Source: Polytrichum commune
Taxonomy: Eukaryota; Streptophyta; Polytrichopsida; Polytrichales; Polytrichaceae
DNA: 64,000 nucleotides
Direction of reading: 5' to 3'
Assembly: GCA_950295325.1 (NCBI GenBank)
Contig: OX485807.1
Coordinates: 47,398,440-47,462,439, forward strand
The translations under genes were made by a program, and so were the position numbers. The first letter of the stretch is position 1; every line of letters begins with the position of its first letter. This document shows positions 19,859 to 51,776 of this stretch, one piece after another. The notes beneath the pieces were generated by a model that saw only the letters and a program-made list of their open reading frames with translations, did not search any database and was not told the origin of the DNA.

Positions 19859-21238
19859 ATGGATAATCGAAGAAGAGAGATTTTGTGCTCTCTTATGATC
19901 TTTATGGTTTTGAAGTATTTTATCGTTTCAACTATGGCGATACAAAAAACCATCATGTATCACCATAATGCTTCAATTATGATGATGGCATATTTTTTGT
20001 TTGGGAGTAAGGAGAGGGTGGTGTGGAAATTTAAACGGCCAAGTGGATATGTGTCACAATTTCTTCTTGGATCATATAATGCAAAAATGTTCAAAGATTG
20101 TGTACGGGTGAATAAGCCTATTTTTTTTATTTGTGTCATTTGCTTGGACCCATGTTGAGCAAGAAAGATACAAAATTAAGACTTTGTATTCCAATAGAGT
20201 GTAGAATTTCTTTGACATTGCATCGATTGGCAACCGGTGATACTTTGCATACACTTGCCGATTTGTATGGTATTTCAAAGTCAAGTGCTTTAATCATAGT
20301 GAGAGAAGTATGTGAGGGTATTAAAAGTGTTTTGAGGCCTTTGGTTTTTCCTAAATCAACATTGTCAATAATGAAGCAAATAGCTTTAAAGTTTGAGAAT
20401 TTACATGGAATTCTATACATTTTAGGGGCAATAGATGGGATCCATACATTTTAGTCACATTCCAATCATAGCTCCTAGTATAGATCATGCTTCATATTAT
20501 TGTAGAAAGGGATTTTATTCGGTTTTACTTCAAGGTGTAGTGGATTCTCAATGCAAATTTTGGAATTATGATTTTGGGTGGGCCGGTAGTATATATGATT
20601 GGGTTCTATTTCAAAAACCAGAAATTGAAAAGAGAACTATGAGTGAAACATTTTTACCATTTAAGCTTATTGAAGATGCTGCATATCCTATGCGCCCATG
20701 GTTCTATACACCATTCAAAGGAGAGAAGACCGGTCTTTCAAGGAAGAAACAATATTGGAATTTTATTCAATCAAACATAAGAATGGCAGTGGAGCGTGCA
20801 TTTGGAATGTTAAAGGGGAGGTGGAGGATTCTACTTAAGAAGATTGACATGTCACTACGTAGCATTCTGGATATGGTAACCGCTTGCCTTTGTCTTCATA
20901 ATTTATGCCTAATTCATGCTGATGAGTTTGACATGAATTGGGCAAGAAGTGCTGAATAAAAGTTGAAGAAAACATCTCTACAAAATTTTGGTGATTTTAG
21001 AGATGTGGATTTGTTCCATATGTTAGAATCCGGCATTAGTGAGATGAGGAACATACAAAGAGAAGTAGTACAAATAAAATTCAATGACATTAATACAAGT
21101 GAGATGGACATAGCTTTTAAGCTTGAAGAAAATGTTGTTGAAACAAGAGAAGATAGAGATAAGAGGACAAAAATTATGTTGAAAGAAACAACTCAATTTC
21201 ACTTGATGCTATATGTATTTATTATAAATAGCAGTTGA
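19859..21238 (+). pseudogene. Harbinger DDE transposase, frameshifted
   Basis: Three frame-shifted blocks give one transposase: 19859-about 20145 (N-terminal region with KRPSGYVSQFLLGSYN), about 20150-20450 (GPMLSKKDTKLRLCIP through GAIDGIH) and about 20452-20959 (SHIPIIAPSIDH to the TAA). The catalytic residues of DDE_Tnp_4 are visible: D in GAIDGIH, D in GSIYDW, and E in MAVERAFGMLKGRWRIL. The first frameshift lies at a run of eight T near 20120-20127; the second is at about 20445-20455, right after the first catalytic D. The frame continues past the TAA at 20957 to 21238, so that stop may also be secondary. Confidence 0.88.
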
Positions 21239-22007: not shown

Positions 22008-23561
22008 GTGTGCAGGCGAGCGCACAAAAAGGTAAGCATTGCCACCATCTTCCATCACTCACAGTCTTGCATCATCATCATGTTGCGTCAAAGACCATTC
22101 CAAATCTCGTACTTGTTGGAGTTTGGTTTGGAGATCTCCGGGCGCGAGCCGGGTACTTCCAAAATCGTGTCGGTCATGTGCATGTTTTGCGCAACTTCAA
22201 GAGGGAGGCTCGTTCCGATGCCAAACGCAGGCGAACAGACAACATCCATTACTACAAAGGTCCACCATTCCGCCCGGAGAACTATCGAGATTACAATAAC
22301 CAACAACATGCTATTCAATGGGAGTTCTACCAACTCCTGGACGAAAAGGAGAAGAAGGAGTTCTTCAACAAGGCCAAAACCACCACCATGGACTGCTTCA
22401 TCAACAAATGCACAGATCAACTCGAGTTTGTTGTCTCATCATCGATTGTGGACAAAATCATCGGAGACATGTTCTTCCAGGTGGACGGCGACGATGGCAG
22501 TGTCATCGACGACATCGGTATAACTAGAAACCAGGCGATGAATTTGTTTGTGAAGCAGAATGATGGCTCGTTCAAGGTCATTATCAAGAACGTAAAGAGA
22601 TTCACCCTGGCATTGCAGCATGTGTCGGTCGGCCTGTCGTTTCGGCAAACGGCAGCGGTTATAGAATCAACACAAGGACGCGTTCACGAACGCGCAACTG
22701 GTGGGTTTGAACGACCACATGGTTAGCAAATTTGTTCGCGTTGGTGTCGCTGTCAATCTGCAGATTATTTCAGACATCATCAGCCGTGATCGCGTGTGGG
22801 TGTTTTCGTTGGCCGCCGACTCCTCCACGCACCGCTTTGTCTCCTATTTCGACATCCGCATTCGACTATGTGTGAGTGATGTACTCTACAACATGCACCT
22901 TGTGGTTGTCCCTTTTTACGATCGACACACTGCTGAGAACATCGCCGACATGTTGTGCAAAATCCTAGACGCCATGTACCTTCGTTGGCGGGATTTGATG
23001 GAGGCGTTGGATCATGACACGAGAATCCATGTGCTGAAGGAGATCGGCCTTTTCGCCCTGAAACTTGTGGATGGTATTTCGCAGGTGCAGGCTGAACGAG
23101 ATTCGGACAACAACGCGGCACTCAAGGTTGCTCCTCTGGTCATGCCTAGTGAGCTTGTCTTGATGCGCTCAAACCGATTCAACAAACTGGTACTCGATCC
23201 ATACCGCCTGCACATTGCAAAATTTTGGACAGTGGAGCAGATCGATCAAATTGAGCGTGATCATAAGGATCTCCTAAAAACATTCATCGAGGAGTTGGCA
23301 ACCAAGGCATTGATCGAGAAGCATGACGTGAAGACCATGTTCAACGACGCTTGGAATGACCTACCTGGGTGGTTTTTGCATTTGCGGGATTTCTGCGGTG
23401 GCCTTGGGTCCGCATTTGCGAACACAACATCGGTGGAGTCAGACTTCAGCATTCTCAAATGGGAGAAGGACGACTTTCATCAATTAATGACTAATTTGAC
23501 ATTGGAGGGCATCTTTCAGACGAAGCAAAGTGATATGTTGGGACACATTCCTACGGAATGA
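22008..23561 (+). pseudogene. hAT-like transposase-derived gene carried inside the Harbinger element
   Basis: A BED-finger-like start is split over frames (VMCMFC near 22170, then REARSDAKRRRTDN from 22209). It is followed by PENYRDYNNQQHAIQWEFY, a long middle, and VFSLAADSSTHRFVSYFDIR. The end, TTSVESDFSILKWEKDDF, resembles the hAT C-terminal dimerisation region. At least two frameshifts are present, near 22200 and 22675, and there is no clear ATG. The gene lies wholly between the Myb-like gene and the right Harbinger end. A weak inverted pair CCGAAAATAA (21990) and TTATTTTCGG (23632) flanks it, but I find no 8-bp target duplication. It is therefore either a nested hAT relic with eroded ends or a captured gene. 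Confidence 0.7.
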
Positions 23562-38462: not shown

Positions 38463-38471
38463 GTTTCTTTG
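38463..38471. other. MULE target-site duplication, left copy
   Basis: GTTTCTTTG, identical to 51768-51776. A 9-bp duplication is typical of Mutator-like elements and fixes both ends of the transposon. Confidence 0.92.
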
Positions 38472-38520
38472 GGAAGACGATATTTACCCCCCTACGAGCT
38501 TTTGTAGGGGGGCTCTGACA
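38472..38520. repeat. MULE left TIR with an internal hairpin
   Basis: The terminal inverted repeat pairs with 51718-51767. Inside it CCCCCCTAC and GTAGGGGGG form a perfect 9-bp stem around an 8-nt GAGCTTTT loop. The right copy keeps the hairpin except for one extra base. Confidence 0.9.
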
Positions 38521-38859
38521 GGTCAGGGCGCAAAACTTTGCGCTGCCCAGATGGCGGTATGACCGGTTTGACCGGTGAAGACGACGACGACGGATGAGGA
38601 GCTGGATGAGGAGCTGGATGAGGAGCTGGATGAGGACAGAGGATGAAAATGGCGCTCGAGGCAGGGGCACACACCTGTGAAGGTCGCGCGTTCTGTGTAC
38701 GTCGAGAGTGGGGGAGTGCTCATGTAGTTCAGTGTCATTCAACGATGTCACATCTAAGCGTGTACTGCATGGGTTGTGATGATTGCAACAGATCGTTGTA
38801 GTGATTGCAACAGATTCGGCGAGGTGATTGCGAAGCGACGTCGCCGCCAAGGATTGGAT

Positions 38860-39160
38860 TGCCTCATCAGGGTTGATGGTTCATTGATTAGGGTTGACTG
38901 GTGATGTGTTTGTAGGGCGTTTGGGTTTGTTACGGCCATAGAGTCCATCGAATGTGGTGAAGAAACGCAGATTTCCAAGGTTTAGTGGTGATTGGGTTGT
39001 TTGTAGGGCGTTTGGGTTTGTTGCGGCCATAGAGTCCATCGAATGTGGTGAAGAATCGTTGGTCGCCAGGGTTTAGTGGTGATTTAGGGGTTTGTAGGGC
39101 GTTTAAGGGTTTAGGCCACCGAATGTGGTGAAGAAACGCCGGTCGCCGGTATCGCTGTGA
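38860..39160. repeat. 91-bp subterminal tandem repeats of the MULE
   Basis: The motif GTTTGTAGGGCGTTTGGG starts at 38908 and 38999, and in altered form (GTTTAAGGG) at 39090, exactly 91 bp apart each time. The motif GAATGTGGTGAAGAA follows in every unit. The stretch 39140-39250 continues with shorter GAAGAATCGT and GCTGGTTG repeats. Confidence 0.8.
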
Positions 39161-39269
39161 AGAAATGCTGGTTGCTGTGAAGAATCGTGAAGAATCGTGA
39201 AGAATGATCGCTGGTCGCCGGTTTCGCTGTGAATGCTGGTTGTTGTGAAGAACCTTGTTGATTTCTTCA

Positions 39270-39738
39270 ATCTGTAGACATGTACTATACTAACATATAA
39301 CTGGTTTTCTCAACTGAGTTTAGCATTCTGAGCCAATTCCGCCTTGGCTCCGCAGTGAAGGATGCTAATTTATGTACATTTAATTTGAAAAACTGGAACT
39401 TCAACTTGTTACCATCCCAACTATTGTTATTGTATGTCCTAACCGATTCATTTCATGCTTTTGTCCCACTTTCATTTTCATCTTGCCAGTAATGGACTTC
39501 CTTTCATGTCGTTCAAACCGACAGTATTGCCGAACTCTGAGCTTATTGATGTCATTGACGATATTGTAGCAGCCACGGTGTTTTCATTATCTGTAGACAG
39601 GTACTATACTAACATATAACTACTTTTCTCAACTGAGTTTAGCATTATGAGCCAATTCCGCCTTGGCTCCGCAGTGAAGGATGCTAATTTATGTACATTT
39701 AATTTGAAAAACTGGAACTTCAACTTGTTACCATCCCA
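39270..39738. repeat. Nearly identical 150-bp direct repeats
   Basis: 39270-39419 and 39589-39738 match at about 146 of 150 positions, 319 bp apart. They contain CTCAACTGAGTTTAGCATT and CCGCCTTGGCTCCGCAGTG. They lie in the noncoding left arm of the MULE and are young compared with other repeats in the element. Confidence 0.88.
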
Positions 39739-40346
39739 GGTGTCTCGCAAGGATTTCCGAAGAGAATAATTTAACCTCTTCGGAACTGACGTTTCAAGTT
39801 TGTGAGGGACTCTCGTTCAAGTTTTATAAACCAGGGTTTAGGGTAATGCCATGTAATGAAGGACTGTAAGCTCATACTCAATTTCTGCATGGGCTTATCA
39901 CATGTGAGGGGTTTTAACAAACTCTCATTTCCAATTAATTGTATTCATTTGCTACCCATGAATATTTTCTTCCAACATTTAAAAGTTTGTGGCATTTTCT
40001 CCTAAACCGATATCCGCCCTTTTTGCTGTTCAATTTTGGTGGAGAACCATGCTCCTTTAAGAATTTATAAGTTAAGGGTTTAGGGGTTTACATGTGTATG
40101 TTTTGTTGATTTGCAGCCATTTGCACATATATTGCTGTTGTTGTTCCTGCTGACTACTAAAACCACCTCATCACAGACCTTCTGTCAACAGGTTCACAGG
40201 TACACTACTTTGTTGTGAATAAACTCCATTTTGCAAGTTGGTAGGTACTTTAAATTATTCGTTGTGTGGATCCTTAAGGTTCCCTGGGATTACTTGCTCT
40301 ATTTCCTGAATTCTGTGTAGTTCAGTTGTTATTGCAGGGGTTTTCT

Positions 40347-43300
40347 ATGGCGTCCAACAAATCTCCCCAGATTTCAACCAATGTGCAGCGACAACCACCA
40401 CCATTGACGACTGCCATGATTGTTCCTGAAGTACTCCACCACAACTTCCACGCATTGGAGGATGAAGACATGATCAGGTGGTTGGGGAGAGAGATATTTG
40501 TGGACACCTGCATCAATGGGCTTCTCGGTTGGCAAGACAAGGTAAGTGTTTGTATTTATTTGATTGCACCTTCCTCTTATCATAACATGCTATACATTTC
40601 TGTGGATGTCATTGGGCCAGCAGGACAGTGGCATAGTCATGTCCTTCTGATGTGTTTTTTGGATTTAAAAGAACATCAACATGTTGCAGGTGTTCGGGGG
40701 GGAGGATGGGAAATCACGCATTTTCAGGAGCACTATGACCCATAATCGAAAACAATGCGTTGCTCTTTACTTGGAGGAGGAGTACGAACAACTAGTTCTG
40801 GAGTGTTATTGGACTGCCCGTGCGCGAGTTAAGGGGCCCAACAACAGGTACAGATTCTCTTGTATACATTGTCAGGAATCACATAAAGATAAGAATACTA
40901 CGTCCTACCACAGGATGTTCAAACTCTGTAGAGTTTATGAAGGTACGAAGCCCCTCAAGATGTACCCCACTTGGGACAAAAGCGAACAGGGTGAGAAGTG
41001 TAGGATTGGTTTAAAGTTTGGAAAACGAAACTCTCCCCCAGTGTCCAGCACCCCATCCCCGGCCACACGTCCACCACCTCTCGACCTTGACGAAGAGGGT
41101 GCGTCCATCGAGTGCACTGATGCAGTTTCTGGAGCGGAAACTTCTCCGCCTCACAGCATGCGTGTCGGCCGATCACAATCCCAGCGGCCATCCCGAAAAC
41201 GCCCTCTTCCAGTACATTTTGCGGATCAGCCTCTTCCTCTTCCAAGGAAGTACATCAACAATCCATCGAAGAGCGTCAACACCGCAACGAAACCACCTAT
41301 CTAGCCCAGCAGACTGCCAGTGCCGTCCGAGGAACATCCGCAGGAGCTGATTCATCCCACGGAGTCCAAACCTCTTTCTGCCGCATCTGATCCCGGTTCA
41401 CCCAGCTCCAGCTGTCCCCTGCAGGAAGTAGAATTTAAGGTAGTTAGACACAATGATGTTCTTCCATGTGCCACAACACTGCCCATGTCCCGGCAGGACG
41501 TTGAACGCCAAGCCTGGGCTGAGGCCAGAACACTATTCCCACCAAAAGACCTTACTGTGAGTCCCCCACCTCATATGGACATAAATTGTCTATACATACT
41601 CATCGCAGAAACTGATGACCAGTGGGCGCCTAAGCACCTCCTTAATGATCCTGTGGAATGCATGCAATATCTGCACGCGCAATTGGAGGATGGGACTCTT
41701 GGCCAACGCATTGGGAATGCTTTTGGGCAGTGGTTCCTCTACGGCAACGACACTGTAGGTCCTTCACGTTCTTTCTGACATTAATTCATTTGATTATCTG
41801 TCTTTCTTCTTTGTCTGCTAGTAAATGAACATTCAGGTCCTTGCCTGCACAGTGCATTTATTTTCTGAGTTCTAATTGACTGTTTTATACACATTACATT
41901 GATTTTGATGTTGTGGTTAACTGTGTTCTGCACGCATCGTGTCTGCAGATTACTCGGACACCTGCAGAAGACGATGCTCTCCAAGAAAGAATGAAAGCCC
42001 AGGTGAAATGTTTTAAGTCAAATTCTGATGTCCATAAGTATCAGGAGTTTAAAGGACTTAAAAACTATCTCAATTACCGTATTGCTTGCACAACATACGA
42101 GGCCCAGCTTGCAGCATCAGCTAGCATGGTAGACGAAATGCGTAGGAAACATGTAGATGCCCACCTTTTGAAATTGACCTTGCTGAAAAGGCACGACAGG
42201 AGTCACAAAAGTGGCATTGGTCCCCCATCTATCAGATTTTCAAGAAATGGCCCCTCCCCAATTTCGTTGCTGCGCCTTGGGACCATACACAGTCAGAATG
42301 GGTAGAGTTGTCGGCTGTTCTATTGGAGAACATGAAATCTGAACCGCTGTCGCTCGAAGCCCAATGTCCTCATATATTGAGAGCTTTGTTATATCTAGTT
42401 AGAACATTCTGAGGTAACAAACGCCCGCTTGCGCATCCCACCAAAGGATTGGATTTGCAATACATGCTAGAGCTTGTAAGAGGCAAAGAATACTCCGTTG
42501 CTTTGTCCATGATTGTGCAGGGTCTACCGCATGAGGGCTGGCCTACATTCCCTGGCATACAGGACGCGGAGGACACTTTCAGTGACCTCCACTCCGACAC
42601 GGTTGCTCTGCTCGGCTACAATCCTTCCAAGCAGGTGGCGGTGGTGGAGAAAATTCAGGCATTCCTAGGGAGGATAGCACACCGGGCCGTAGCTGATATG
42701 GTGCGCATGCACCGTGACGAGCAACTCGCACAATTGTGGTACCAAAGTGACACAACCGAGCATGTACGGGAAAAATGCGAAGATGTAAGTCAACTTTTCT
42801 TTTATATACCAGTTGAATACATATTCTGCAATATCCTTCTCTTGTGTAAAGTAAGCTGTGTGTTGCAACTGTTATTTGATGTCCTACATGCAGGGAAATT
42901 ACTGAGGGGTTAGGTCAGCTATGTTTTGCAAGTGTTTGTTTGATGTCCTACATGCTGGGAATGTGTCGGTATTATGTCAAGTAAGTTCTGCAAGTGTTCT
43001 TGAATGTCCTGCACTTATACAGTCCACTTGTGTTCTGACCAGGCTTCTTTTTATGATGTCATCCAGGTTGTGTTCTTTTCCTTGCTTTTTCGCGAAGATA
43101 TAGACATTGGGTCAGCTATGATTGGCGACCTCCTCAAAAAAAACAAAAGCGTTCAAATGCAGGTTGCAGAGGTGCAAAAAGGATTCGTTCGGTTGAGGGA
43201 GACACAGTTACGTTTATTTTATTGTGGGTTGGGTTTGTAGGAGCCAACTAGTGACATTGCAGCCGACGTGCCGTGTGCTCGTTTACTGTTGGGTGAATTT

Positions 43301-44891
43301 CCAGGATGTAGGCGATCGCCCAACTCATGTGGCTTTGTGGCGGACGTACAGGAGGCATTAAGTTTGGATAGCTTGGACAGTATCCCGTTGCCGTCGCAAC
43401 GTTCGCTTGAAGGACTTGACGGAATCAGCACGCAAGACCTTGGTATGTCCCAGCTGAACATCGGGCATTATTCACCTGTCAGGATGTCCCCTCCACCTCC
43501 GTTGTCCCCGCAGGAGCTTCTATGCAGCATGCACTCCGATAACCCGTGTACTCCAACATCACTTCGCGAAGGACATGGCCAAGGACCATGGTTATCAAGA
43601 ACCCTGGCATTGACGCCTCGGATTGTATTGAATTTAGACAATAGACTTGCAGCACATACCTCGAAGGACATCAGCGTGTCTGCCATGGAGTCCAAGGATT
43701 GCGAGGGGACTGACACTGGAAACGAGGTTGCATCCAAGGCTGTGTAGAAGTGTCCAGTACGCCCAACAACTGTGGACGTGTCATTCGATGATGTTTTGGC
43801 AAGAACAACTCACAAGTCCGATGGACGGTGAGTGTTCTTCTTTGTATATCTTACAGTACACCATCAACTTCTTGTTTTTTGTAATGTGTTAAGGGGCTAA
43901 CTCAAACATTGATGTCATGCAGGTTGGAACAACTTGTGAACACTATCTGTAAAGACGCAGGTGCGACTGGCATTCAAGGTTTTCATTTTATGTTCCGTGG
44001 TGAATACTTTAATTTAGGGTGGGCCGGTGATGTGCTGCCCCTAACTCAAAGTTATGGGCAGTTATCTAACCACATGATGGACTGGATTAGGGCTTGGTTC
44101 AATCCCCAAATCCAGGACATCAAATGCCATGTGTGCAGTCCTTATTTGATTGGACTGCTCACTTCGCATGTGCGTACCGCAAGCTCTAGTGGTATAGAGT
44201 TATACGCAGAATTTGTTCAGAACAAATACACTGCCCTTCCAGCGTTGGATATAACAACACTGATTCTGCCTTACAGCTGCAGGAAGCACTGGACTGTGTA
44301 CGCCATAGGAGAGCAAGGTTTCTTTCACTTTGACTCATTGCCTGGATCGGGTCTGCACTATGATGTGACTATACGCACATGTATTGCCAAGATGTGGGCA
44401 GCGAGGACTGGCTGCACAATGCATTCTGACAGATGGTTGCAGACACAATCATCGCACGCCTGGATACAACCATCTGTACCACACCAGAATTCGGGGTGGG
44501 CGTGTGGTTTTTATGTATGGAAGAACATCATGGAGTTTGCAATGGCCATGAGGCATAGACCCGCGTCGTTGTGTGAGGTTAGTGATGAACCCATACAGGT
44601 AGGTTTGGAACTGAATGACATCAGCCATAATGCAATGTGATTGTTACATGGTTATAAGATTGATACAAAATATTTGTGATGCAGGGATTTGAGCTGCGTT
44701 ATAGTCGGAGCGATGCCATACGTACAAGGACAATCATTCGTGACGCGTTAGCGGGTGTCATTGAAGCGGGAAGTCGTGGAAAGACTGAGTGGAATGTGGA
44801 GGTTGTCATGGCCTCGAATGAAGAACAACCCATAAAGGCAAGATATCAGTGCAGACATAGCTACAGACGAAGGAAGAAGGCGGACACTTAG
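40347..44891 (+). pseudogene. MULE-borne C48 (Ulp1-like) cysteine protease gene, six exons, with stops
   Basis: Exons 40347-40541, 40690-41754, 41949-42784, 43067-43827, 43923-44598 and 44685-44891 join in consistent phase to about 1246 codons. Exon 5 holds the peptidase: His in KHWTVYAI, Asp in FHFDSLPG, and Gln plus Cys in HQNSGWACGFYVW, so the catalytic residues look intact. Exons 1-4 are long, MULE-specific and proline/serine rich in part. Breaks in an otherwise continuous frame are TAG at 41302, a one-base loss near 42160, TGA at 42410, TAG at 43238 and TAG at 43745. Ulp1 proteins remove SUMO; the role in Kaonashi elements is not known to me. It is convergent with the transposase gene, with a kinesin fragment between them. 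Confidence 0.85.
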
Positions 44892-45284
44892 TTTGGGTTT
44901 AGGCTTCATAGTGTATAGACTATCTATATGTTAACATAGGGCTTGACCACCGTAGTTAATACGAAGGTAGTACTTGTGTTTATGCAATATGGATTGCATA
45001 TTTTGGCAGTCTCATTTATAAAGTTCATTTTCATACAATCGATGGTGTCGATTAACATGTGAGTCAGTTCAAGGTCAGTGTGTAACTTGGCTGCATTGGG
45101 CTCATTTTGTATATTCAAGAATGACACATTCATTATCACCTGCAGGTGGAAATTGACACCAGTGTCTGCAGGTACAATTGAAGTAATGTTAGTTGAATCT
45201 GAATAACATGCAAAGAACATTGAGTTGGACATGGAATATAACATGCACTGGAACACGAAGAACACTGCCCAGATTACTACAAAC

Positions 45285-45700
45285 TGATGTGAAGTGCCAA
45301 AACATGGCATTATCTATTATGTTATTTGCAGGACGTATGAGTTCAAGCGAAGGACACGAAGGACATGATCCAATTCCAGGGGCAACTCAATTCCAACTTC
45401 ATCATCAGACCAACTTTGTGCGGTTGGTGGATGTTGGAGAGGCGAATCGCTTTGCTGCCAGCACAAAACTCAATACTGAAGCATCACGTAGTCATGCCAT
45501 GCTTCTGGTGGGTACAAGTAGCTTTTCATGGTTGACTTGCACAATTAGCCGATTGTTGTTTCTACAAGCTCATCCAGTGTACTGCAGCAATCATAAATTC
45601 ATGCATGAAATAGCGTCAATTATGTCAAAATGATGTGAAGTGCCAAAGTATGGCATTATTTATTATGTTAGGTGCAGGACACATGAGTTCAAGCGAAGGA
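45285..45700. repeat. 70-bp direct repeats flanking a captured fragment
   Basis: 45285-45354 and 45631-45700 match at about 63 of 70 positions (TGATGTGAAGTGCCAAA, GAGTTCAAGCGAAGGA). They bracket 276 bp that contains the kinesin-derived piece, in the gap between the convergent MULE genes. Confidence 0.85.
45415..45507 (+). pseudogene. Captured kinesin motor-domain fragment
   Basis: The frame reads VGEANRFAAS, then TKLNTEASRSHAMLL, ending at a GTGGGT donor-like site. This is the kinesin switch I region (family pattern N-x-x-S-S-R-S-H), in the form seen in plant armadillo-type kinesins, where GEAxR-x-AAxTK-LN leads into it. S-S-R-S-H has become A-S-R-S-H. Only about 31 codons are present, with no P-loop or switch II, so it cannot be a motor. 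It lies in the same strand as the protease gene and between 70-bp direct repeats. Fragment capture of host exons is well known for Pack-MULEs; the donor gene is not in the window. Confidence 0.72.
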
Positions 45701-48303
45701 CATGAAAGTGACATATTTGTGATGAAGAACATCATAACCACTAGCTGATTTGTAAACATGGTTTTTTCCTACGCGACGCAATCTCCAGGAAACTTTTATG
45801 ACGCTTGAGGGAGTTGTCGCCCGTCATCTCAGGAAACGAGGAGGTGGTCGGGTCAACTTGCATAGTGGCGACCCCCCGAGCAATCAGTCGGGTTTGTTTT
45901 CCGCGAATGTGTCGTAAATCTGCGAGTAAGTAGTCATGGAGTGCTGGATACTCATCTGCCGTCTTTGTTAGGTCGATGTATATGTCATGCGCCTTTGACC
46001 TCGGCCCACATTGCGACAAACGCTCCTGGGAAACGCAGATTGGGTTTCCGGCATCGCCTCCCTGCATGTCCCCAGTGAGGCCCCTAATGTCACCTGGATC
46101 CTGAGTATCAATAATAATTGGGTCTTCACACCCACCGCCTATGTGTCCTTCATCATCACTAATGTGAATAATGGTGTCATGCAGGTCAGCGAACCTGGAC
46201 AGAACAGGTGGTTGGGTGGATGGCGACTCAAGAGGATAAGGTTCTTTAGCAGGTTTGGCAAAACATTCTGGCAGCCGAGTTTCACGGTCTATGCCATATT
46301 TGCTGCCAGCCTCGCGGAAGATGTGACCGTCATCGACAGTAGGGTGCAGCATTTTGAAGACCTTCAATGTATGTTTGCAGATCATGCCCTCGCGTGCAAT
46401 AGGGCATGAACATTGTGCCCATTCAGAATCAGGAGAGTGAATGGTCCACACCTTTGGACGGTTGTTGATGGATCCAACATAAGCAACATTCTCGTCCAGG
46501 CAAATTCAGACGTTCGTATCAGGTATAGCATTGGCCCTGATGATTGCTGAAACAACAATACCCTCCTGTTTTGTGTTTCGTATAAATCCAAATGCTTTGC
46601 ACTGCACACCGTACCAATAATGTGTAAGAACGTCTCCCATGAGATGATATATTAGCCAATCCATACGCCTTCCCACAAATCTGTCCTTTGAGGAATTTAG
46701 AATAGTTTTCAAATTCCCATGATATGATTCGATTGCAGAATTGGTGTTTTGACCAGCATGAGGAATGCGACGCGCTCCAACACACCACATTGCGATGTTG
46801 TCCCTCCATAACTTATTCATGTACCTCATGAAGGACACAGCCCGCGGCCTGGTGTATGTTATCATGTCGAGTTGTTGGACAACCCAGGTGACAGGGTCAT
46901 CCCAAACAGAGCATCCTTTACCGTACATTATGTCTCCCAGCATTTGAAGGACAATTGCCCTTTCTGTAACATCAGGTATCTTCTTCACTGCGTTCTCCGC
47001 CCAATTTTTCCAGACATGCCATAGACATAAAAAAATCTTCACCTCTGGCCATACAATGCTGTCCACAAAGAACACCAATGTCAGCCATATGATTGGCATT
47101 AAACATATGAAAGACATACATGAGAGCAGGAACATATGCAGCAAGGAATGGAGACCATGATTACCTCAATGTGTTGATTTCAGCCTGTGCATTGTCAAGA
47201 ATGATTGAAGAAGGAGTCCAATCGGATTTCAGGCATTGAATTTTTTGGTGCAGGGCCTGAAGAACAGGGTGCAATTCTTGTTCGCGAGAGCGGGATATTA
47301 CAAAGAACGCAACAGGTCTGCCATTTCTCCATTCATCAAATGCCATGATTGTGTACAAAGGATACTGAAAACCCAACATGTGATACCAATTACTTGTTTT
47401 CGCAATTAATATGATATGCAAAGACATTATGCGACCTGAAGGACATGGAAAGAGATGGAAGGACATGAAATGTAAATGAAGGACAGAGTGTGGTGGCTTA
47501 CCCTAGTTTGGCTTGTCCCAAATGTAGCATCAATAGACAAAGCACTTTTGTGTCCAAATTTTATCATCATCTGCAGTTGCCACTCAGATTGGAGGCCGAG
47601 AGTGAAAGGGGATTCGTCTTGTACCTGTGAATTAATGTCAAGCAAGGAGTGCTCCTGATAATAGAACACATTTTCAGGATTTTCCATGACCCACATATGC
47701 GCACTAATTGGGTCAGAGGGATGTTTTGCCCATAGCTCCTCAGCCCGCTTCCGACAAATGTTCCTCACATCTACCGACAACAGGAAGGTATCACGGGTGA
47801 CAGTACCGTTGGCAATGGCCAACTCTCGGACCTCTTTTATGTGTTGTTGCATGATCTGAGCAGGTGATAGACCAAATGCATGCTGTTCAGCTATTCTCAT
47901 TTTCAGTTCTTCTGAAAGTCCAGCCCCTAATGCATACCTGGTCCCTTGCACCATTGTGCCATGGCACAACTCCCCCTGGGCATTCAAGTGTTCCGTGTTC
48001 TCATATATCAAAATACACAAAGCAGGATCAAGGTATGGTTTCTTGGCAAGAAATGCCCGTTGACACCCACGCTTGATTGAGTTCCCCGCCACTGTTTTTC
48101 CTATGCGCTGGACCTTTGGCACAGCTGGTTTGTTCACAGGAAAAGAGTCGTACTCAGGTATGACCTTCTTACCTCGTTTTTTCGGTTGTGTATGTGAATT
48201 AATCTTCCTTTTTGTCTGTGTGGATTTCAGCAGTACTTGCATGTCCTTCGGCTTAATTGCTGTTTTGTCTTCAGGACCAAAGTGGCATCTGTGCCTGATA
48301 GGC

Positions 48304-50451
48304 TGTGAGGCCAAACCCCCCACCCTTAAGCGTCCGTAGTCCGAGTAGTGGGTTTGGGCTCACATTCCTCCGCGGTATTGGATTTGGACTTGGATGAGTC
48401 CATAGTGCAATGTTCACCCTTCAAGTGGTCTTGGATTTAACTGGAATTTCACTTTTAACAACTCAATGTACGATTTCAATACGTATGTGGAGAATGCACA
48501 AGTTAACTATGTTATTTTAACCTCCTTATGCTCGGGTGCTATTTTGTCTTTGTTTGCTTCTAACGTCCATCCGGCTGCTTTAGCTACACAAGCCCTTAAG
48601 GATATCCCTCTCCTAAATGGAGTCCGTGCCGTTGACTCTATACTACCACTTGAACTATCACTTGTGTATTCCGTATCGCTACTATAAGAGGTCTCACTTG
48701 GTGTCTCCATACCGTACATAAGCCTTTAAGTATTAAGAAATACTTATGTGACTTATGTCAATCTCTCCCTCGCACCTTTGGTCTTTGCTTCCTTTGTCTT
48801 GCCATCGCGAGAGTGCTCCACATTCTCCATTAAGTTGTGCACGTGGTTTATTTTTAAAGAGAGGATGCAAGTGTTAAAAAAAACACTATTCTCTATAGTC
48901 AATCTCAAATACATTTACTTGTGGAAGCCACACATAACACTAACTAGCATAATGTAACTAACTACTTGTCTATGAGCTAATTAGGTAGGCTATCTACTAA
49001 GCTCCTTCATGAACCCATCTCTTTACTTTCTAATTACATAAACCTAGCTCCTTCATAAACCCAGCTCCTTCATAAACCCAGCTTCTTAGCTTCTAACTAA
49101 ACAAACCCAGCTCCTTCATAAACCCAGCTCCTTCATGAACCCAGCTCCTTAGCTTCTAACTAAACAAACCCAGGTCCTTCATAAACCCAGCTCTTTACTT
49201 TCTAACTAAACAAACCCAGCTCCTTCATGAACCCACAACTTTGTAGTTGTAATCCCCAACTACCTCACTAATTATTCAAGCCCTTAACTAATCTTCCTAC
49301 CTAATTTCCCTAATTCTACTAACAACCCCTTTCTAATCACACAATTCTTCTCTAATCCTAAAATCCTAAAATCCTAGAGAGGAGAGGGGGAGAGAGAATT
49401 TCCTAACTTCACTAAGACTAACTAATCCACACAAGTATATTTTTGCACTCATCACAACATCAAGTGCTCAACTCTTAAACATGGAACTTGCAACCACGTG
49501 TATTCAAAACATGAACTTTAAGTACCACAAATTGGAATCATGAATTAACTTTAAAATCCTTCACGTCAACACTAATTCTACCAAGAGGTCAAGCCCTCTT
49601 CAAGGCTAACAAGCCTTGGCTCTCAAACTAAAAACTAAGCACACACATGTGCTCCAATATGGCTTCCCACACCCACACTTATAACTCGTGGGGTGCCTTG
49701 GAGCACAAAGGAAAGAGAGGATGAGTGAGGGAAGAATGAGGGATTATATAGTAAGCTTGAGGGGGTGAGCACCCTCAAGGCTCACGATAAGCCCTTGAGA
49801 TTTCCTCCTACTTAGTATGCGCCAATCCTATCTTCTAAGTCTTCCTCCCTCAAATGATCAACAAGGATCCTAATTCGAACATTTAACTAGCCTTGGCTTT
49901 CTACCTACCACACTTTACCAAACTTGGGATGCTTCAACCCAAACTTAGCCTCCTTCGCTTTCCGCCGCCATAACTTTCTCCCCTTACTTTCCCAAATCGT
50001 CGCTCACCACTTAATTCAAACCACGATGCTTAACTCGTGATTTGATTGGTGCTTTGAGAATTTGCTTATCCTCCACCTTGCATTCTTCCTTGGGCCTTCC
50101 CCATTAAGTGGCCATGATGAGGTGGTCCACTTGTGCGCTCCATGTGATCCTCCATTCATCCCAATTCGAATGCACTTGCCTCTTGAGTCACTTTGGTTGT
50201 CTCCATCCATTTGTACTAGCCTACTCACTAACTACTCAATCCAAGTTCTCCTTACCTATCCTCATTCACTCAAATCCTTCCGAAGGTAAAAACACAATAA
50301 CAACTCACATCCTAGCCTCTTACAACATGGTACTTCTAAGACTAACATTTCACTCTTTTTATATTTTTGTGAAGTAACATGCTACTTCAAAGTGCATCAA
50401 CTAACGTTTCAAGGGTCTAAGACTAAATGTGGGCACCCTTTTGGGCTCACA
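48304..50451. mobile_element. Solo-LTR-like insertion, 2148 bp, in transposase intron 1
   Basis: It begins TGTGAG and ends CTCACA, the TG...CA with short inverted ends expected of an LTR. It is flanked by a perfect 5-bp duplication, TAGGC at 48299-48303 and 50452-50456. No reverse transcriptase, integrase or primer binding site is inside, and the two ends are not longer repeats of each other. A single LTR left by recombination is therefore the simplest reading. The insertion ends nine bases before the transposase exon 2. Confidence 0.82.
48990..49240. repeat. AGCTCCTTCATAAACCC minisatellite in the LTR
   Basis: The 17-18 bp unit recurs about eight times, alternating with AGCTTCTAACTAAACAAACCC, as a higher-order array. 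Confidence 0.8.
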
Positions 50452-51717
50452 TAGGCCCAATGAGTACGTCAAGAAAATGCATCAGTGGCGAATTTTGACT
50501 AAGCAGTGAAGGTGAGGAGTATTCAAACTTAATGTAACTGTTGCTTTCAATGAAGCGTGCATGCTATTTGAATTGCCAAAACACTAATACAACATTCTAT
50601 TGAATTACAGTCTTCAATGAAACCAATCTTGACATTGTTGAATTGTTGAATTGTCAAACAGATATGATTGTAGTAAGCCCTACCACTGATTTGCTATACC
50701 ACAAATAAGATGACAACAACCTGAAGGACATGGCAGTGACAAACCTCACAAGCAAAGCCGGACTGTTTGCACGCGGTTTCCTCAATGAATTAGGCCCATT
50801 AACCCTTAGGGTTTCTTTGGTGAATTTGCAGGGATAGAGAGGATCGTGTTGCTCTCCTTGTATGAAATCTGCAAGCCTATCCCAGAATATCACTGCCACC
50901 TTGGAAGTCTTGTATTTTCCCTTCCCATTTGTCACCAAATCTGTCCAGAGCAAATCTTGCATGCAGAATTCACCAAGGGGAGGTGTTTGAACTCTACTTC
51001 TCAATTCCTTGATTAGGTTAGCCTGTTTGGCTTCAAATGCAGCAGGATCACTTTCCTGTGATTGCTGGTCTGGTTGCAAAACTGACTGAAGTCCATCATC
51101 ATCTGCCATTGCACAAAGATCATTGATTGGTAGGTCATCCATTTGGGCCTTTACTAGAAGAGGTGTGGATATAAGAATGGAACTTGCTGATTGTCACCAA
51201 ACCCTAAAATATGTGGCCCTCATCCCTACACTAAAACCCTTGTTGTGGTGGCACCATATGTCTCCATGAGCACCCCACGCCTTATAATGTTGGAGGTGGT
51301 TAATGAGTTGGCTGTGAGTACGCCTCTAAATGCTAAACATGCAACAGAAAAGAGCTCATCAAGCATCAGAGGACATAAACTGTGGTGTGTCCATAGCACA
51401 ACTCACGCGGGCGATACTAACCAGAAAGGACATGAAATACAAAGTGGACCATTACATACCAGATCTGAGATCCGAAAAACCCGGAAGTACATGGTCTGCA
51501 GGACATGATTGGATCTGAATGACATGAGTGGATCTGAGGGACATGGTTTACGTCTTGCATGCATGACACGAAGCCTAAGTAACACGCGTGTATGTCGCAG
51601 GTCGTGCGGGCTTTCTGTCTTCCACGTCGACAGAGGTGGACGAAACGGCATTGGATGATTACTGCTGACGTCATCCAACGGGCAGGGGATGTCTTCGTGG
51701 CCGGGCAGACTCTGGAG

Positions 51718-51767
51718 TGTCAGAGCCCCCCCTACAAAAGCTCGTAGGGGGGTAAATATCGTCTGCC
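51718..51767. repeat. MULE right TIR
   Basis: Inverse of 38472-38520 with one substitution and one extra base. It is followed at once by the GTTTCTTTG duplication. Confidence 0.9.
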
Positions 51768-51776
51768 GTTTCTTTG
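51768..51776. other. MULE target-site duplication, right copy
   Basis: GTTTCTTTG, identical to 38463-38471. Confidence 0.92.

Follow-up and report, generated by a model that had tools for sequence, protein, structure and literature searches.

In the Kaonashi (KI/KIU) Mutator-like elements (MULEs) of Arabidopsis, which are non-TIR MULEs, a ULP domain is encoded in the orientation opposite to that of the transposase gene (PMC2528002), and a review treats the Kaonashi genes as VANC genes that include a Ulp1 domain, whose function in these MULEs it gives as unknown (PMC13317346). VANC proteins contain DUF1985 and DUF287 and are encoded in the Arabidopsis VANDAL elements by a gene of their own, in addition to the transposase gene. 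Introns and the region upstream of the transposase gene contain short words that vary between related families, the word sites of VANC21 being found in the introns of VANC21 and VANB21 and upstream of VANA21 (PMC5735166). The TIRs of VANDALs are described as degenerate (PMC10398659). TIR-bearing MULEs of melon and grapevine carry a ULP sequence downstream of the transposase gene, in both orientations and with a scattered, non-monophyletic distribution (PMC2528002). The mosquito MULE Muta1, a 3.2-kb element with long TIRs and many nonautonomous derivatives, combines 8-9-bp duplications with a palindromic terminal motif and repeated short subterminal units, and the available part of its description mentions no second gene (PMC5225508). 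Among the titles and abstract beginnings listed by literature searches, mostly outside subscription journals, there was no report of such elements in bryophytes.

The 13,296-bp element at positions 38472 to 51767 of the 64,000-nucleotide stretch of Polytrichum commune DNA analyzed here (the window) is a TIR-bearing MULE, a dead copy from a family that moved recently, and couples a MULE transposase with a convergent C48 protein. Its designation as "Kaonashi-type" in the earlier note is apt for the convergent C48/ULP gene (the ULP domain is in reverse orientation to the transposase in 75 of 75 pairs among the matches listed) but not for the non-TIR nature of Kaonashi elements, given the clear TIRs found here, nor for DUF1985. 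That domain was not found in a Pfam scan of the second protein of one sibling, and a genome search for it returned 0 matches in a run that had no positive control and whose controls were also silent. The resemblance to VANDAL/VANC includes the separate second gene and words that vary between related families and are positioned as in the VANC21 case, but it is seen here in elements of a non-seed streptophyte with clear rather than degenerate TIRs, with a second protein in which DUF1985 was not found and with words that are mostly dispersed, with some small clusters, whereas VANC targets are often tandem repeats. Anti-silencing has been shown for VANDAL/VANC, whereas for the present family we infer it. 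The melon and grapevine elements share the TIRs and the downstream ULP sequence but differ from the present family in that its listed pairs are all convergent and apparently co-inherited. The palindromic terminal motif is not new among MULEs, being known from the description of Muta1 (PMC5225508); what is new is the long joint inheritance of the transposase and C48 genes, as judged from their distances, and the dispersed words that differ between clades.

Ends, siblings and decay of the window copy

The left TIR (38472-38520, + strand) contains the internal palindrome CCCCCCTACGAGCTTTTGTAGGGGGG, and the right TIR (51718-51767, - strand) differs from it, over 50 columns, by a single mismatch, at position 3, and an additional G, so that the arms measure 49 and 50 bp. 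The same 9-mer, GTTTCTTTG, flanks the element on both sides as a target-site duplication (38463-38471 and 51768-51776); 8 or 10 bases do not fit. A search of the 408-Mb genome for the palindromic TIR core, CCCCCTACN8GTAGGGGG, gave 25 places, versus 0 for the reversed control pattern, and, judged by coordinates, these places are the ends of 13 elements, one of which has a single exact core. Ten of these elements were read completely (the window copy and nine of its 12 siblings, leaving out C4_437, C5_455, and C5_811), the other three being deduced from positions. A transposase match lies inside all 13 and a C48 match inside 12, among the matches listed, so the TIR alignment proposed in the earlier note did tie the copies to these genes, with the exception of one lone imperfect TIR match (C5:46624967) that has no gene nearby among the matches listed. 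Perfect 9- or 10-bp target duplications were seen in 7 of the 10 elements read (one of them a run of G and therefore weak), duplications matching at 8 of 9 bases in two, and an imperfect one with a 3-base indel in the remaining one. A chance origin of the ends and the duplication has a negligible probability and was ruled out, both by the 25 core places against none for the control and by the sibling ends, which are alike and accompanied by their own duplications; the end comparison and the nine siblings thus bear out the originally proposed extent, TIRs, and exact 9-bp duplication. In the more distant clades, a search of the initial 4 kb of 7 loci, which did find the palindrome in the C1_701 control, detected none with a CCCCCTAC or GTAGGGGG core and a stem of 9 or more. 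In C5_209, the core is present within this stretch with a stem of 8 (C5:20932851), and the other loci may end before the element ends.

The window copy is dead because it carries a nested solo LTR, a transposase stop codon, and a frameshift and stop codons in the C48 gene. The solo LTR (TG...CA; 48304-50451, 2,148 bp), flanked by the 5-bp duplication TAGGC (48299-48303 and 50452-50456), lies within the first intron of the transposase gene, at a distance of 15 bp from the 3' splice site; without it and its duplication, the element would measure 11,143 bp. The transposase stop codon (TGA, 46506-46508) is replaced by CTC in all nine siblings. In the sibling reading frame, the second gene is interrupted by stop codons at 41302-41304 (TAG), 42410-42412 (TGA), 43238-43240 (TAG), and 43745-43747 (TAG) and by a 1-base deletion near position 42173. 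The description of the element as almost complete therefore applies to its structure but not to its coding capacity. Three siblings located on three chromosomes are 99.5-99.6% identical, which indicates that the family moved recently, and both gene models are uninterrupted in three of the nine siblings, as had been hoped.

The transposase and C48 genes

The transposase gene, on the - strand, comprises exons 1 (50745-51109), 2 (47502-48288), and 3 (47165-47364) and exon 4 (45741-47058), which contains a SWIM-like zinc motif and the stop codon mentioned above. The DDE residues, which we take from motif to be Asp at 47531-47529 (exon 2), Asp at 47196-47194 (exon 3), and Glu at 46730-46728 (exon 4), belong to a family protein of about 875-890 residues. 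The MULE domain PF10551 was recognized in the C1_512 sibling protein (8.4e-16, 58.7 bits, with a cut-off of 27.6) and in the window exon (3.2e-6, 27.9 bits); NCBIfam gave no match for three window exons. The Pfam SWIM domain scored 14.1 bits in the window exon (cut-off, 19.6) and was unlisted for the sibling protein, although the C-x-C...C-x-H pattern is visible.

The second gene, on the + strand and modeled from the sequence with the help of the siblings, consists of exon 1 (40347-40541), exon 2 (40690-41754), which encodes a zinc-finger-like C-x2-C-x12-H-x5-C motif, exon 3 (41949-42784), exon 4 (43067-43827), exon 5 (43923-44598), which corresponds to the C48 catalytic domain, and an uncertain exon 6 (44685-44891) whose preceding donor is not GT in 9 siblings. 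The family protein has approximately 1,200 residues, with the zinc-finger-like motif near its N terminus (the three loci with a stop codon in this stretch, L076, L077, and L078, were omitted from the comparison) and the C48 domain at its C terminus. The PF02902 scores are 21.5 bits for the window exon and 21.1 bits for a sibling protein (cut-off, 20.7), and the profile matches Ulp1-like and SENP8 structures (PDB 6dg4, 1.4e-5; PDB 1xt9, 5.2e-5). As previously reported, the coupling of a DDE transposase with a convergent C48 protease is confirmed by the two domains in opposed genes, and the window exon retains all four catalytic residues, His (44287-44289), Asp (44332-44334), Gln (44485-44487), and Cys (44503-44505), the codons being computed from alignment residue numbers. 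The residues are conserved in 25 (His), 25 (Asp), 24 (Gln), and 24 (Cys) of 25 rows; four of the 20 C48 exons fetched, which have internal stop codons and were omitted from the residue alignment, are included in this count and in the Mantel test below and hold both altered residues. Since dN/dS between two sibling clades is 0.13 for the transposase and 0.16 for the C48 exon (exon 4 values of the C3_365 pairs were excluded for a frame slip), both genes are under constraint.

Elements of this type, said in the earlier note to be rarely seen whole, proved not to be rare in this genome: among the matches listed, a convergent C48 gene lies within 12 kb of 61 of the best 73 transposase matches (all with 54% identity or more). 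The survey scored 150 of 438 transposase candidates and listed 150 transposase and 123 C48 matches, dropping the second pieces of split C48 matches; 75 of the 150 had a C48 match within 12 kb, always convergent and at a median distance of 2.7 kb, and the other 75 had none within that distance among the matches listed. Transposase and C48 distances match closely over 25 pairs (Mantel r, 0.965) and, without the five most distant, over 20 pairs (r, 0.876), with 0 of 2,000 permutations as high in either case, which indicates that the pair is old and co-inherited. These data bear on the possibility of ordinary Kaonashi-type transduplication, in which a MULE would recently have captured a host Ulp gene fragment that plays no role. 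Repeated ULP capture by angiosperm MULEs has been proposed (PMC2528002), but in the present family the joint inheritance extends to C48 genes only 22-24% identical to that of the window, the catalytic residues are kept, and the C48 exon shows the low dN/dS given above. Recent capture was accordingly rejected as the main reading, and we regard it as quite improbable.

Dispersed words and their possible role

Short words of 8-9 bp, different in different clades, are dispersed through the elements of the family; that of the window copy is TGTCCTTCA. The ATGTCCTTC motif occurs in 9 copies in the window element, versus 0 in the remaining 50.7 kb of the window: in second-gene intron 1 (40639-40647, +) and exon 4 (43568-43576 and 43663-43671, both -), between the genes (45358-45366 and 45695-45703, both -), and in transposase intron 2 (47438-47446 and 47458-47466, both -), exon 2 (48241-48249, +), and intron 1 (50723-50731, -). 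Across 9 loci, the main 9-mer of the clade is present in 5-16 copies, versus 0-1 for each of these eight 9-mers in the 50.7-kb control. With copies required to be at least 60 bp apart, the top 9-mer reaches 8-14 copies in 8 of 9 loci, versus no more than 4-5 in 40 order-1 Markov resamples per locus, and 3-5 copies in five 10-kb control pieces. The repetition of a short family-linked word in noncoding DNA was found for GTCCTTCA in C1_512 (12 noncoding versus 2 coding copies; p 0.006) and in C1_512, the window copy, and C3_365 pooled (22 versus 10; p 0.007) and is weaker in the window copy alone, where 5 noncoding and 4 coding copies are hardly a concentration. A prediction on clade words, fixed beforehand for three further elements, was borne out clearly in one of them and more loosely in the other two. 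Some sharing of words between clades is also seen: TGTCCTTCA is common to the window and C1_701 clades, and the words of one clade have a few copies in others (TGTTCTGCA, 5 in C3_365; TGTTCTTCA, 7 in C1_512; TGTCCTTCA, 4 in C4_424).

The reading that we favor, with a probability of roughly 0.47, combines TIR-mediated transposition with anti-silencing by a word-reading, VANC-like second protein that contains the C48 domain. The transposase would cut and paste the element via its TIRs, with the internal palindrome as its probable (predicted) binding site. The second protein would act as VANC does in VANDAL elements, its DNA-binding part recognizing the copies of the family word that are scattered over introns, the region between the genes, and elsewhere in the element, and so relieving host silencing of family members, and the C48 domain is predicted to cut SUMO or another ubiquitin-like tag off chromatin or silencing proteins at the word sites. 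Protein and word would change along the tree, so that distant clades each protect themselves; by analogy with VANDALs, the clade-specific words suggest a home-made escape from host silencing.

Two other explanations of the words have to be weighed against word-guided anti-silencing. The words could serve as accessory sites bound by the transposase, or by an accessory transposition factor encoded by the second gene, with the C48 domain trimming or protecting the transposition complex and no anti-silencing involved. Enrichment of the words in the elements is as expected from this explanation, as is their following of the transposase tree, with which the C48 gene co-varies, and Muta1 has subterminal tandem repeats together with its terminal motif (PMC5225508). 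However, the words occur throughout the element, central introns and intergenic stretch included, instead of clustering at the ends, and the TIRs already contain a conserved palindrome that is predicted to suit transposase binding, so we consider accessory sites unlikely, if still a serious contender. Signals acting at the RNA level (in splicing or transcript stability of the element genes), with the C48 gene kept for an unrelated benefit, seem more doubtful. Many word sites are intronic, and the gene-sense orientation is strong for GTCCTTCA in the window clade (4 of 5 in the window copy; 5/5, 7/7, 10/11, and three times 11/12 in six siblings) and complete for TGTCCTTCA in C1_701 (10/10). This bias is weaker in other loci (9/16, 4/9, and 7/10), and the mixed orientation in C5_319 and C2_678 argues against such signals, as do the sites located in the intergenic stretch and in the region upstream of the transposase gene, the distance of 42-416 bp between the gene-sense intron sites of C1_512 and the downstream intron end, and the difference in words among clades within one genome. 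The view that the words are nothing but a splice signal is thus disfavored.

More tentatively, and at about one chance in three in our estimation, sequence-specific transposon anti-silencing may be an old trait of streptophyte MULEs and not an Arabidopsis oddity, present here in a TIR lineage of a non-seed plant with a zinc-finger protein and a long-kept C48 domain, whose clades would have drifted, together with the protein, to at least four words (TGTCCTTCA/AGTCATTCA, TGTTCTKCA, TGTAGTGCA, and CATGTTAC). If the anti-silencing reading is true, such systems extend far beyond angiosperms and offer natural protein-word pairs for studying the evolution of specificity. The many copies, clade-differing words, uninterrupted siblings, and a related C48-less family open the question of the Ulp1 domain to testing, namely, which part of the protein recognizes the word and what the protease contributes. 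In that related family (C1_288), which has no detectable C48 domain, the zinc motif is only weakly matched (27% over 88 residues, with an E value near 0.01), and CATGTTACA is barely above expectation (5 copies versus 4 in resampled sequence). A different word, CATGTTAC, is present in 12 copies.

Element ends, sibling copies and decay of the window copy

The 13,296-bp element that the earlier note had described at 38472-51767, bounded by 49/50-bp TIRs and a perfect 9-bp duplication and carrying two genes in convergent orientation, was found with all these features in place. Its TIR includes the palindrome CCCCCCTACGAGCTTTTGTAGGGGGG, and the left TIR, used as a query against the plant's own 408-Mb genome (seven large contigs make up ~406 Mb of that), gave 25 matches. 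For LOB domains, which belong to a streptophyte family, 13 matches were obtained, several of them probably parts of a single gene; so low a number points to a non-seed plant. An exact match to the core CCCCCTACN8GTAGGGGG is present at 25 genome places (0 for the reversed pattern, used as a control), which by position are the ends of 13 elements, the window element included; the TIR match at C5:46624967 lacks the exact core and has no listed gene nearby. The genome-wide TIR search proposed earlier accordingly yielded 12 siblings. The concern that TIR copies might have no association with these genes is answered by a transposase match inside 13 of the 13 elements and a listed C48 match in 12. 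In the 13th (C5:8114263-8181164), where two subfamily TIR ends lie 67 kb apart, a transposase fragment is the only listed match between them; this may be an element that nested insertions have enlarged. Allowing a core loop of 2 to 12 bases gave 69 genome places (control, 0), and 43 of the 50 listed ones lie no more than 25 kb from any of 60 transposase matches used for comparison. The left noncoding part of the window element contains tandem repeats (38592-39205) with 12-bp, 22-bp, 91-bp and 10-bp units.

Nine of the 12 siblings, named here by chromosome and position, were read at full length. Their ends agree with those of the window element, and each has its own duplication, which is perfect in C1_512, C6_129, C2_872 (a run of G), C3_392, C2_363 and C7_113 (10 bp), matches at 8 of 9 positions in C2_502 and C2_588, and is imperfect in C3_365. 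The 99.5-99.6% mutual identity of C1_512, C6_129 and C2_872 over ~12 kb, on three chromosomes, shows that the family has moved recently. The window copy, which shares 66-76% identity with its siblings, is dead. Its transposase is interrupted by a TGA at 46506-46508 (CTC in 9 of 9 siblings). Compared with the same nine, its second gene lacks one base near 42173, and in the sibling reading frame this gene has stops at 41302, 42410, 43238 and 43745. Intron 1 of the transposase gene holds a 2,148-bp TG...CA insert (48304-50451) with a 5-bp duplication, TAGGC, that is missing from all nine siblings. For a 591-bp piece of this insert, 40 genome matches were scored (1,351 candidates), all 100% identical after rounding and several of them paired ~9-10 kb apart, so the insert is interpreted as a solo LTR belonging to a retrotransposon that is young and abundant.

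The convergent gene pair

Four minus-strand exons make up the transposase model and six plus-strand exons that of the second gene, the last of the six being uncertain because the preceding donor is non-GT in siblings. Among these predicted models, that of the transposase is free of internal stops in 5 of 9 siblings, and both are uninterrupted in C1_512, C6_129 and C3_392, which makes these three candidates for the intact member that had been sought. In C1_512, the transposase contains a MULE domain (8.4e-16) and the second protein a C48 domain near its C-terminus (21.1 bits, with a cut-off of 20.7). Searched against solved structures, a profile of 17 C48 exons matched the Ulp1-like SUMO protease 6dg4 (1.4e-5) and SENP8 1xt9 (5.2e-5). 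The His, Asp, Gln and Cys residues are invariant in these 17 aligned exons, a set that excludes four with internal stops; in the full set of 25, His and Asp are each retained in 25, and Gln and Cys in 24. All 10 aligned copies, several being close relatives, retain the four residues of the exon 2 motif C-x2-C-x12-H-x5-C in the second gene.

Sequence comparisons indicate that the gene pair is old. A C48 match within 12 kb is listed for 75 of the 150 transposase matches scored (438 candidates) and not for the other 75, and all 75 listed pairs are convergent; for the 73 highest-ranked transposase matches, the split is 61 to 12. Transposase and C48 distance matrices for 25 elements with both exons are correlated (r 0.965, or 0.876 minus the five most distant elements), and 0 of 2000 permutations reached the observed r in either set. 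The main groups of the two trees agree, with many weak forks (starred inner branches, 4 of 22 for the transposase and 10 of 22 for C48). A comparison of C3_365 with C1_512 gives dN/dS values of 0.134 (transposase) and 0.163 (C48 exon).

Two copies of a related family, C1_288 (L034 + L029), were read and share 98.7-99.6% identity over two long pieces. They have open frames convergent with their own transposase, but neither translated search nor the profile built here found a C48 domain in them. The zinc stretch matched weakly (27% over 88 residues, E ~0.01), so the homology of this second gene to that of the window's family is likely rather than certain. Gain or loss of the C48 part between MULE families would parallel the VANC genes (encoding anti-silencing proteins of Arabidopsis VANDAL elements), described with and without Ulp1 (PMC13317346).

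Dispersed words

Short words are dispersed through these elements. The window element has nine copies of ATGTCCTTC (6 noncoding, 3 coding), which is absent from the remaining 50.7 kb of the window. In seven elements of its subfamily, GTCCTTCA has 5-12 noncoding copies, versus 0.14-0.34 expected from order-1 Markov resampling, and 2-5 coding ones. Other MULE loci have different words of similar shape: TGTCCTTCA (10) and AGTCATTCA (8) in C1_701, TGTTCTGCA (9) in C2_678, TGTTCTGCA (16) and AGTTCTGCA (13) in C5_319, TGTTCTTCA (10) and TGTTCTGCA (8) in C4_424, and TGTAGTGCA (10) in C1_196, the last four loci being 10-kb stretches whose boundaries are not element ends. C1_288 repeats CATGTTAC 12 times, in place of TGTCCTTCA. 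The words partly overlap between clades, and each of the eight tabulated 9-mers has 0 or 1 copy in the 50.7-kb control. Besides its own words, C1_701 (L027 + L031) has 12 copies of AAACCCTA, which we take to be telobox-like.

For three further elements, it was predicted beforehand that the top dispersed 9-mer would have the shape WGTNNTNCA, stand well above resampled sequence and be the clade's own variant. C3_707 bore this out with TGTTCTTCA (7 spaced copies versus ≤5 resampled; 10 in total), and C7_640 did so with a shared first place and a narrow margin (AGTCCTTCA, 7 versus 5 resampled), its top 8-mer being GTCCTTCA (11). C5_209 agreed in substance: its top 9-mer, ATGTCATTC (9), corresponds to the word with a one-base offset, followed by CGTCATTCA (8) and, among those with 7, AGTCATTCA and TGTCATTCA (resampled, 5); its top 8-mer is GTCATTCA (17).

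Possible function and classification

VANC21 is reported to bind YAGTATTAY, such features being located in the VANC21 and VANB21 introns and upstream of VANA21; VANC6 targets have other words (AGTTGTCC and AGTTGTAC), and protein and target are described as co-evolving (Hosaka et al. 2017, PMC5735166). Because the layout of the words in the present elements is similar to the VANC21 case, we think that the second protein may be an anti-silencing factor that recognizes the word, and that the window element would work like VANC; the binding partner, methylation effect and protease substrate of the second protein are all inferred. This reading is weakest on two counts: within the window's clade the words are biased towards gene-sense orientation, and it may be the transposase, rather than the second protein, that reads them.

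Of the label “Kaonashi-type” (after Arabidopsis MULEs with an Ulp1 domain) in the earlier note, the MULE with a convergent C48 gene holds, whereas Kaonashi MULEs are described as non-TIR (PMC2528002) and the window element has TIRs. DUF1985 was undetected in the second protein of one sibling and in a genome search that had no working positive control. With TIRs present and DUF1985 undetected, the element is filed under neither Kaonashi nor VANC. TIR-MULEs bearing ULP have been described from melon and grapevine (PMC2528002), so the kind is already known and the window element is a variant of it.

Elsewhere in the window, a 298-codon open frame (22665-23561) looks transposon-like by eye and has no Pfam match. 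The open frame at 20435-20959 contains a DDE_Tnp_4 transposase domain (1.1e-25) and is presumably Harbinger-type.
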